A stretch of 64,000 nt of DNA, taken from positions 1,054,001 to 1,118,000 of the forward strand of contig NZ_AZUI01000001.1 in the NCBI RefSeq assembly GCF_000526995.1, read 5' to 3'. The position numbers and the translations under genes are program-made. Shown piece by piece: positions 8,013 through 62,221 of this stretch (positions are counted from its first letter, which is position 1; each line of letters begins with the position of its first letter). Under the pieces are notes generated by a model. It ran no database searches. It worked only from the letters and a program-made list of their open reading frames with translations, and was not told where the DNA came from. This DNA comes from Lacrimispora indolis DSM 755. GTDB lineage: Bacteria; Bacillota; Clostridia; Lachnospirales; Lachnospiraceae.

Positions 8013-8037
8013 GGGCATAAATGTACCTTTAAGGCAC
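8013..8037 (-). repeat. Divergent copy of the ATACCTTTATGCC leader element before rpoB
   Basis: In rpoB sense the leader contains GTGCCTTAAAGGTAC then ATTTATGCCCAAAA. This matches the first hairpin (GCC...GGT) and conserved core of the leader repeats found before murI, ppiB, licD and rfbH. The second hairpin is weak here. It lies about 45-65 bases before the rpoB start, inside the 5' leader made from the promoter at 8063-8091. Confidence 0.5.
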
Positions 8038-16707: not shown

Positions 16708-16712
16708 CAAAT

Positions 16713-16826
16713 TTCCTCTTTTCTGCCCTGTCTTTTGGGCATAAAGGTATGCCGTAAGGCGTTCCTCTTTTCTGCCCTATCTTTTGGGCATAAAGGTATG
16801 CCGTAAGGCGTTCCTCTTTTCTGCCC
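16713..16826 (-). repeat. Two and a third tandem copies of a 49-bp two-hairpin leader repeat before murI
   Basis: In murI sense each unit has a hairpin GCC-TTAC-GGC, the core ATACCTTTATGCCC, an AAAAGAYA loop, the closing arm GGGCA, and GAAAAGAGGAA. Unit starts on the plus strand are at 16713, 16762 and 16811, exactly 49 bases apart; the third is only the 16-base tail. The two full copies differ at one base. The TGCCC/GGGCA arms form the second hairpin, and the GAGGAA of the last copy is the murI ribosome site. Related copies occur before ppiB, licD, rfbH and rpoB. Confidence 0.85.
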
Positions 16827-31575: not shown

Positions 31576-31635
31576 ACGTTCTTTCTTATTTCACTAAATT
31601 TTTATAATTATTTTAATGATTTTTTTCTGTTGTGT

Positions 31636-31805
31636 GATATAATGAGCGCAAGAGAGCGAAGAGGAGCTTGCTCCTCGGCGCGAACGGCGAATGTTGATCA
31701 TGATTCGTAGAATCATGATATAATGAGCGCAAGAGAACGAAGAGGAGCTTGCTCCTCGGCGCGAAGGTTGAATGTTGATCATGAACCCCAGGTTCATAAT
31801 ATAAT
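31636..31805 (+). repeat. 81-bp tandem hairpin repeat carrying TATAAT boxes
   Basis: Two units of exactly 81 bases (starting 31636 and 31717) plus the start of a third. Each unit has GATATAATGAGCGCAAGAG, a perfect hairpin GAGGAG-CTTG-CTCCTC, GGCGCGAA, TTGATC and a second hairpin. The second hairpin is GATTC-GTA-GAATC in unit 1 and GAACC-CCA-GGTTC in unit 2: both arms changed together. A TATAAT hexamer recurs at each unit boundary, the last about 40 bases before the next gene. Confidence 0.85.
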
Positions 31806-33761: not shown

Positions 33762-33868
33762 CCCTTTCTTCTTTATTGCCCATATATTTTGGCATAAAGG
33801 TATACCTGTAAGGTATTTTCTCTTCCCTACCCGTATTCTCCGGGCTTAAAGGTATGCCTGTAAAGGCA
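33762..33868 (-). repeat. Two diverged copies of the leader repeat before ppiB
   Basis: In ppiB sense, the distal copy has hairpin GCCTTTACAGGC, core ATACCTTTAAGCCC, and a second hairpin GCCC...GGGT. The proximal copy has hairpin TACCTTACAGGTA, core TACCTTTATGCC, loop, GGGCA and AAGAAGAAAGGG. Stem 1 changed on both sides (GCC/GGC to ACC/GGT) and stayed paired. The purine tail of the proximal copy is the ppiB ribosome site. Confidence 0.8.
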
Positions 33869-34081
33869 CTTTTTGCGTCAGATTCCGCATATGGCTATAT
33901 TTTATCAAATACTCATGGGTTTGTACAGCCCCATTTGAAAACATACACTTACCGGCTTTTTCAAAAGCGCTGCTTTAGATTCCTCCTCTTTGTGATCTGA
34001 CAAAAATAGTATATATCAAACTTTTTGTTTTATTATTTGCCGATATATATAAAGTTTTTCTTTATCTTTAAAACATTTTGT
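33869..34081. other. Spacer between ppiB leader and YheO-type gene
   Basis: About 210 AT-rich bases without a supported gene. A TAAAAT -10-like box on the minus strand near 33900 may serve ppiB. Nothing else recognised. Confidence 0.4.
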
Positions 34082-56266: not shown

Positions 56267-56366
56267 GGATTCGCGAGTTGCACTGCGGATTCACGAGCTG
56301 CACTGCGGATTCGCGAGCTGCACTGCGGACTCGCGTGCTACAATAAGTATCCACGAGCTGCACTGC
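56267..56366. repeat. Five 20-bp tandem repeats
   Basis: Units start at 56267, 56287, 56307, 56327 and 56347. Consensus GGATTCGCGAGCTGCACTGC; units 1-3 differ at one or two bases, unit 4 is degenerate in its second half and unit 5 in its first. Directly before the array, GAATCC-GCA-GGATTC forms a hairpin. Located between the long hairpin and the start at 56395. Confidence 0.9.
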
Positions 56367-56394
56367 ACCCCCCAAAAAATACGAGGTGAACAAT

Positions 56395-59924: not shown

Positions 59925-60764
59925 TTAATGATATATCTTAATTTCCATGCTGGAATGGGAAGGCACCCGCTTTTCCTCTGGCGGGAGCTTCTTATAATCC
60001 CCGTAGATCCAGGTTAGAACCTCATTCCAGCCCTTTGGAGCCATCAGCATAGTATCTTCAAATTCCAGATCAACGGTTTCTTCACACCATTCCTTTTTCA
60101 GTGTCACATAAAGATAATCCGGCTGATAATTGCTGTAATACCGAAGACCGCTCTTTCCCGTCTGGTCTTTGACCGCTGCCTTGTGCTGCAGCTTTCTTAA
60201 AACTTTCATTGGTATCATTTTTCCAACAAAGGACAGTACGCCGATAACGATTTTATTGACCAGGCTGTACTTCTTAAAATCCAGACGGTAACGGTGACCC
60301 ATAGCCATACCGTAGATCACGGTATGAAGAAGACGGGTAAACGCTGAGGCTGCTTTGCCTTCAGGAAGTTCATCAATGGTGAATAAATCCACATACAGAT
60401 GGTTTAATTTACCTTCATAAAACCTCATCTCTTCCGAATCTTCATGAGTCCGGCTGTTTTTATAGATGATCCTGGCCGTAAAGTCATAAAAACCAGTTCC
60501 GCCTCTCAAATCCTTTGGTTCAAGAAGCTCCAGCCCTTCCGGAAGCTCCCGGCGAACCACCTTTAAAAAGGCATCGTAATTGGAACGGGTAAACGCCACA
60601 TCCGCATCATCGTCCCAGGGAATAAAGCCTTTGTGCCTTACTGCGCCTAAAAGTGTTCCTGCATCCAGAAGATATTTAATCTTGTATTTCCGGCAGATAC
60701 GGTCAATCTCCTTTAAAATAGCCAGATTCGCCTGATGTACCTCCGTTAAATCGTATTCCCTCAT
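59925..60764 (-). CDS. LicD-family phosphotransferase
   Basis: 279 residues from ATG 60764 (AAGAGGAA upstream, part of the leader repeat). LicD nucleotidyltransferase-fold motif: YLLDAGTLLGAVRHKGFIPWDDDADVAFTRSNYDAFL (about 28-65) with the DDDAD catalytic acids. LicD proteins transfer phosphocholine or similar groups onto surface glycans. It lies at the end of rfbF-rfbG-rfbH, so it probably decorates the same glycan. The cell-wall-binding repeat protein at 10.4-12.1 kb is the kind that could bind such decoration (inference only). Confidence 0.9.
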   Translation of the reverse strand: MREYDLTEVHQANLAILKEIDRICRKYKIKYLLDAGTLLGAVRHKGFIPWDDDADVAFTRSNYDAFLKVVRRELPEGLELLEPKDLRGGTGFYDFTARIIYKNSRTHEDSEEMRFYEGKLNHLYVDLFTIDELPEGKAASAFTRLLHTVIYGMAMGHRYRLDFKKYSLVNKIVIGVLSFVGKMIPMKVLRKLQHKAAVKDQTGKSGLRYYSNYQPDYLYVTLKKEWCEETVDLEFEDTMLMAPKGWNEVLTWIYGDYKKLPPEEKRVPSHSSMEIKIYH

Positions 60765-60769
60765 GTTTC

Positions 60770-60818
60770 CTCTTTCCTGCCCACGCTTCCTGGGCATAAA
60801 GGTATACCCTATACTTCC
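60770..60818 (-). repeat. Leader repeat copy between rfbH and licD-type gene
   Basis: Sense strand: GAGCCTGTAGGAAG, then GGGTATACCTTTATGCCC, loop AGGAAGCGT, GGGCAGGAAAGAGGAA just before the LicD ATG. The second hairpin TGCCC / GGGCA is perfect, and the rfbH stop codon lies in the first part. Confidence 0.8.
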
Positions 60819-62158: not shown

Positions 62159-62167
62159 TCTTTATTT

Positions 62168-62221
62168 TCCTCATTCCTGCTCGTATTTTTGCATAAAGGG
62201 ATACCCGAAGGGTGCTTCCTC
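62168..62221 (-). repeat. Leader repeat copy between rfbG and rfbH
   Basis: Sense strand: hairpin ACCC-TTC-GGGT, core ATCCCTTTATGC, loop, GCAGGAATGAGGAA before the rfbH ATG. Stem 1 gained a pair (ACCC/GGGT), and stem 2 shifted to TGC / GCA, both still paired. Confidence 0.75.

Follow-up and report, generated by a model that had tools for sequence, protein, structure and literature searches.

What is the two-hairpin sequence that stands twice over between ddl and murI in the 64-kb stretch of Lacrimispora indolis DSM 755 DNA analyzed here (the window), and does it belong to the genes that it precedes? A preliminary description had proposed an undescribed cis-acting RNA or intercistronic repeat, with copies on the coding strand just before the ATG of murI (two, at a 49-bp period), ppiB (two), licD and rfbH, and a weaker copy before rpoB. 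Six good unit copies lie in the window, all on the minus strand and ahead of those four genes. The ddl-murI array (16713-16826, minus strand) was recovered as a tandem repeat by TRF and gave two covariance-model matches with the expected period, one to the downstream copy, which adjoins murI and carries the Shine-Dalgarno (SD) sequence used by this gene (16710..16766, 65.5 bits), and one to the upstream copy, located after the ddl stop codon (16759..16815, 59.8 bits). The remaining copies were each borne out by a model match: the ppiB-adjacent unit (33763..33820, 68.3 bits) and a second unit ahead of it (33814..33873, 50.2 bits), a single unit with an imperfect hairpin 1 between rfbH and licD (60764..60818, 56.8 bits) and a single unit with a shortened hairpin 2 ahead of rfbH (62164..62219, 59 bits). 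As described, the last copy before each gene ends at the ATG or within about 10 bases of it. The rpoB-leader copy (8013-8037) was discarded as non-significant, with an nhmmer E-value of 0.63 and no place among the model matches at E ≤ 0.1. Among the window genes, glutamate racemase and RfbH scored above the NCBIfam cut-offs, and the LicD family, the cyclophilin-type isomerase and the RNA polymerase beta subunit above those of Pfam. The window also holds a tandem pair of 81-bp units (31635-31796) that share 88% identity and are unrelated to the hairpin repeat, and a 20-bp unit (GGATTCGCGAGCTGCACTGC) repeated five times in tandem (56267-56366) shortly upstream of an ORF listed at 56386.

The unit is composed of a core of about 40 nt with two hairpins and an 11-12-nt purine-rich linker that contains the SD sequence. 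Its consensus, GGAAACACCCTnCGGGTATACCTTTATGCCCAAAAAnCATGGGCAGnAAAGAGGAAA, was taken from an alignment (A1) of 64 of the 67 units of the window's genome, chosen with near-complete stem arms and leaving out three structural variants; the covariance model (R1) was built from the same 64 units. The core is laid out as ACACCC-nnn-GGGT-ATACCTTTA-TGCCC-(about 9 nt)-GGGCA, that is, hairpin 1 (ACCC/GGGT), the conserved ATACCTTTA and hairpin 2 (TGCCC/GGGCA), with the purine-rich SD as tail, and a direct reading shows the consensus to be free of stop codons in all frames. There is also a longer subtype (82-83 nt; L034, L044, L045), which has extra hairpin sequence ahead of its last hairpin; examples among the model matches of the window's genome (G000, contig C1) lie at 2828818-2828899, 3196248-3196330 and 2351811-2351892, and there are others. 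At one orthologous junction (group 41), the longer type is present in G005 and G006 where the window's genome has the short unit.

Genome-wide (6.38 Mb), 54 occurrences of the exact 13-base core compare with a single one of a reversed-word control; at least one of the 54 (L001) is a chance match within coding sequence, without the hairpins. At least 146 model matches at E ≤ 1 were obtained among the best 150 candidates scored, with E-values down to 4.7e-19. The 64 distinct arrays that we examined comprise 36 single, 23 double, 3 triple and 2 quadruple ones, and this multiplicity of dispersed non-coding copies in one genome is that of MITE-like small interspersed repeats. The placement claimed in the window, in sense and before start codons, holds across the genome. 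In a strict test demanding coding sequence downstream and non-coding sequence upstream, 35 of the 64 arrays passed in sense and none in antisense, compared with 4.8% of random positions (3052/63,000) and 20.5% of GGAAA sites in non-coding sequence (93/453), and since the test misses proven cases (murI, mutL, polA, der) the figure of 35 is an underestimate. When an in-frame stop within 30 codons upstream was used instead, 31/64 passed in sense and 6/64 in antisense, with 6.4% of random positions; a looser start-codon test (57/64 sense, 13/64 antisense) was disregarded, given that it lets through 35% of random positions. Furthermore, 45 of the 64 arrays have a long sense frame that terminates within the element or at most 120 nt before the first core, in keeping with positions between the genes of an operon. 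Among the exceptions are a copy that forms the end of a transporter-like frame (L003), one at 4384717 with no clear gene (L166) and one inside a frame (L046). No common function was found among the identified downstream genes.

The orthologous junctions of murI, polA, der and mutL were read across the genus. Before murI, 5 of the 24 genomes with a match are occupied, 2 hold remnants and 17 are empty; the polA junction is occupied in 7 and empty in 15 of 22 genomes, and that of der occupied in 7 and empty in 17 of 24, with a split der match in the empty genome G024. For mutL (24 genomes with a match) we counted 6 occupied and 11 empty junctions, 6 that hold remnants or diverged copies and 1 with an unreadable start. 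An empty murI junction consists of the ddl stop codon, GGAGCAGATATT with the native SD, and the murI ATG; the native SDs of the other empty junctions are GAAAAAGGAGCAGGTGCC before mutL, AAGGAGATATAAT before der and AGGAGAACAG before polA. In occupied genomes the repeats are located at this native SD; of the 6 genomes occupied before mutL, 5 have the native GGAGCAGGTGC after the last unit, G018 being the exception. The native SD of der lies within the last codons of the upstream gene, which encodes a DUF512 radical-SAM-like protein. At empty sites this protein ends in SYxGYELKEI in all 16 genomes read, 6 of them with three extra residues overlapping the der start; at occupied sites it has a different tail that runs into the element (7/7 genomes).

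The number of units per junction ranges from 0 to about 4 across species, and the same turnover of copy number was found among the listed members of 46 further junction groups (a few of which represent one locus twice), 34 of them occupied in at least two genomes. In groups 3 and 41 the type of unit at one site switches between species, neighboring units at one site are often near-identical, and the murI copies of G006 and G017 are decayed or gone. All the empty sites among those read belong to species other than that of the occupied ones. Judged from these junction sequences, the repeat is an insertion and not an old inherited leader. Diverged, older-looking relatives or remnants are present in Lacrimispora genomes lacking the exact core (L376, L379 and L381 in G022, and the mutL junctions of G001, G002, G022 and G023). 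G018 has two murI matches about 2 kb apart (L202 and L210; contig C8, 854122-854937 and 856899-857645) with identical upstream sequence.

In clean copies, an 11-nt direct repeat is found on either side of a core of mostly 40-41 nt: GGAAAGAGGAA (L005), GGAAAGAAGAA (L006), TCCACAATGAA (L333) and AAAAAGAGGAA (L046, within a coding frame). We compared the left and right 11-mers of each locus with shuffles that dealt the flanks out among loci. In a stricter version, with one base of play and with remnant-like left flanks dropped by admittedly crude filters, the mean match was 7.81 vs 6.67 at family-level loci (27/40 kept; 0/1000 shuffles as high), with 6 loci vs 0.8 in shuffles matching at 10 or more of the 11 positions, and 6.56 vs 6.27 in Lacrimispora arrays (98/129 kept; 1/1000 shuffles as high), with 11 arrays vs 3.0 at 10 or more (0/1000 as high). 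With the phase fixed, the mean was 6.40 vs 5.58 at 35 of the 40 family-level loci, some of them remnant-like (0/2000 shuffles as high), and 4.95 vs 4.78 in 112 of the 129 Lacrimispora arrays, where the largest of 2000 shuffles reached 5.16 and the difference is not significant. We read the small average effect in Lacrimispora as ageing, which the enzyme-free spread considered below would likewise predict. Two single cases accompany the statistics. At L297, the left 11-mer GTTATAATGAA contains the stop codon of the upstream frame, a glycosidase whose solved relatives align only up to residue 461 of 517; the strictest filter dropped this locus because the bases preceding the repeat resemble the arm of a unit. 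At L046 (G000:C1 5970258-5970315), a unit with AAAAAGAGGAA on both sides lies in frame within a 330-codon flavoprotein-type frame (FAD_binding_5), where repeat and core amount to 17 added in-frame codons and no start codon follows the unit. No homologue of this gene without the insertion was found at the cut-offs used in 25 genomes of the genus and 397 of the family, and the Protein Data Bank alignments shown stop before the insertion.

Taken together, these results point towards a mobile short repeat of Lachnospiraceae that probably inserts at SD-like purine tracts, since insertion at native SDs, direct repeats, tandem turnover, decay and the lack of a gene theme amount to the behavior of a mobile repeat. 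The core of about 40 nt would be the part that moves, and several sites have it inserted at an SD. About 11 nt of the target seem to become duplicated on insertion, and this duplication is supported both statistically and by single cases. As the duplicated target usually ends in GAA, the right-hand duplicate would retain an SD near its native distance from the ATG. Arrays would then gain and lose units of 49-52 bp between the 11-nt repeats, probably by unequal exchange, because copy number differs between species and neighboring units are near-identical. In the transcript, the two hairpins are predicted to separate the SD from the upstream stop codon, so that genes that formerly touched or overlapped may become translationally uncoupled with the SD still usable; such uncoupling is a likely side effect of the insertion. 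Computed SD accessibility gave mixed values with and without the unit (0.77 vs 0.39 for murI, 0.59 vs 0.64 for mutL, 0.75 vs 0.70 for der), in comparison groups that pool empty sites, remnants and additional occupied genomes; that of polA consists of one sequence.

How the unit spreads bears on a first alternative, in which no dedicated enzyme takes part and copies arise at SD microhomology through template switching or recombination. We regard it as a tenable possibility, albeit one that we do not favor. A AAAGAGGAAA-like sequence is common to the unit linkers and the native SDs, and both the near-identity of neighboring units and the switches of unit type between species (groups 3 and 41) are what such exchange would produce. 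Against it, a fixed stagger is suggested by the direct repeats of the clean cases (TCCACAATGAA, GGAAAGAAGAA), which are host-specific and have a length near 11 nt. Two options are live for the spread of the repeat, one being recombination at SD microhomology and the other an enzyme with an 11-nt stagger. The strict sense orientation is compatible with recognition of RNA. No transposase, reverse transcriptase or other mobilizer could be linked to the repeat. Our estimates for the mobile repeat, for enzyme-free spread and for the regulatory role discussed next overlap and are not meant to sum to one.

The paired changes in the stems, on which the preliminary description had based its case for a folded RNA, were borne out on larger sets. 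In A1 (64 copies of the window's genome), 29 cells changed on both sides of a stem, compared with 11.7 in shuffles, and in A2, an alignment of 48 distinct copies from other Lachnospiraceae genera fitted to the model, 64 cells compared with 13.8, although the choice of near-complete arms biases the paired percentage of A1 upwards and, together with the fitting of A2, makes the pairing percentages lean towards structure. One pair of stem 2 appears in A2 as CG, UA and GC in 19, 16 and 10 copies, and the paired stems are also visible by eye in the sequence-only nhmmer read-out of the A2 loci. The count of pairs that show any double change, in turn, was not above shuffles, being matched in 280/500 of them for A1 and 80/500 for A2. 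Moreover, RNAalifold recovered neither stem from A1 and returned instead four pairs of an alternative middle hairpin in columns that hardly vary, an outcome that counts against the two-stem structure in that alignment. This middle hairpin (GGGYAT/ATGCCC), which would form a switch with the two stems, was rejected as a candidate: 92.1% of its cells pair, but its covariation score stays at shuffle level (0.111 vs 0.109), and its mean pair probability over 35 arrays was 0.21, compared with 0.68 in stem 2 and 0.36 in stem 1. For 53 last units folded together with their flank, the energy gave a weak signal (mean z of -1.23 vs mononucleotide shuffles, 55% below -1).

Divergence after insertion was measured on terminal units at orthologous sites, with the window's genome as reference (29 loci, 58 genome pairs). 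It amounted to 30.3% in loop 2, 25.6% in loop 1 and 19.7% in the tail, to 16.3% and 18.2% in the arms of stem 1, to 10.5% in the 3' arm of stem 2, which lies outside the search word, and to 5.2% in the SD, while the values for the 5' arm of stem 2 (7.7%) and the core (8.0%) are biased, both lying within that word. Such slow change points either to constraint or to a conserved source from which units are copied again and again, and the constraint on stem 2 of these units suggests that there may be some function after insertion. On these grounds it can be proposed that the repeat is a selected cis-acting regulatory RNA, whose hairpins and ATACCTTTA linker would bind a protein or a small RNA and so tune translation or processing of the downstream gene. 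The covariation of both alignments and the contrast between loop 2 and tail on the one hand and stem 2 3' arm, core and SD on the other speak for it. We nonetheless consider this reading plausible but less likely than not: the repeat is absent at the same genes in sister species, copies decay or vanish, as those of murI in G006 and G017, the identified genes share no function and one copy (L046) lies within a coding frame; besides, the pairing figures lean to structure with the number of double-change pairs at shuffle level, and re-copying from a conserved source would also slow the change of core and stems. Selection on the stems could have its source in the mRNA, the transfer mechanism or both. 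Of the original proposal, then, a dispersed, sense-oriented two-hairpin intercistronic repeat at the ribosome-binding site, with covarying stems, stood, and the cis-acting regulatory RNA is left as its less likely part, as the orthologous sites behave like those of a mobile repeat.

The repeat was also sought in databases and in other genomes. The claim that it belongs to no named RNA family held, as Rfam gave no match at the gathering score in the window, and the 4 matches at E ≤ 1 in six further loci lie off the repeats. In the literature, the word sets used, several of which gave no results, retrieved no description of it. The exact core is present in 12 of 25 Lacrimispora genomes; model matches were found in 25 of 200 sampled Lachnospiraceae genomes (best 27 candidates scored per genome) and, in a class-wide sample (best 14 scored per genome), in 3 of 391, all of them Lachnospiraceae. 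Short dispersed hairpin repeats in bacterial genomes are often of the REP/BIME type, and PF01797, the Y1 (RAYT) transposase domain, is present in 20 of the 25 Lacrimispora genomes. An element of that type moved by a Y1 transposase is nevertheless very improbable here, since no PF01797 match at E ≤ 0.001 was obtained in either the window's genome or G005, both rich in exact cores (54 and 40); target duplication is not a known feature of Y1 transposition. Chance or convergent hairpins close to start codons have next to no probability: within the window the loose core word is just mildly enriched (33 occurrences with up to 3 mismatches vs 21.3 expected, reached by 2/100 shuffles), but the 54 exact cores against 1 for the control and the model E-values down to 4.7e-19 refute this reading.

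If the repeat is indeed mobile, a tiny element would be exploiting a target that is present at most genes and survives insertion, which would explain its presence before murI, mutL, polA, der, obgE, dapB and rplB in Lacrimispora and before rplB (L333), rpsK, encoding ribosomal protein S11 (L307), and dnaK (L294) in other genera. We tentatively put forward, as a bolder proposal that may well prove too strong, a mobile element of a new class, for which the SD itself serves as integration site, each insertion rebuilding a working ribosome-binding site and being tolerated even before essential genes, and whose spread would uncouple operon genes and add an RNA leader of variable copy number. The junctions that carry 0 to about 4 units in related species, before genes some of which formerly overlapped, are natural replicates in which the cost or benefit of translational coupling is directly testable. 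They also raise the question of what delivers a hairpin of 40 nt to SDs in a single orientation.

Several described systems invite comparison with this repeat. REP/BIME elements with their RAYT are likewise short dispersed intergenic hairpins, whereas the present repeat carries an SD, sits before start codons and resides in a genome without a Y1 match. Rickettsia palindromic elements can fuse in frame with genes, as the L046 copy and the one ending the L003 frame seem to do; however, the available part of their description gives them as about 150 bp and integrated in genes, compared with 40-52 bp and mostly intercistronic sites here (PMC10969869). The pneumococcal BOX, RUP and SPRITE repeats are described as small, interspersed, MITE-like and structured when transcribed, with a variable number of BOX modules and target duplications reported for BOX and RUP (PMC3049150). 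According to the sections of that account at hand, they are over-represented between convergent genes and have terminal inverted repeats, with BOX elements of 67-637 bp, whereas the repeat described here occupies ribosome-binding sites (PMC3049150). Going by those portions of their descriptions that were available, none of these systems, nor the following one, matches this repeat. The closest described case found is that of the TAACTGA direct repeats of marine Beggiatoaceae, which are tandem, mostly forward and at most a few bases from start codons (PMC4679880). They are a heptamer with little SD character, in whose description, as far as available, no two-hairpin unit or target duplication appears, whereas the present repeat has two hairpins and an SD; like it, they show no theme among downstream genes, a patchy distribution and a copy number that varies between relatives (PMC4679880).
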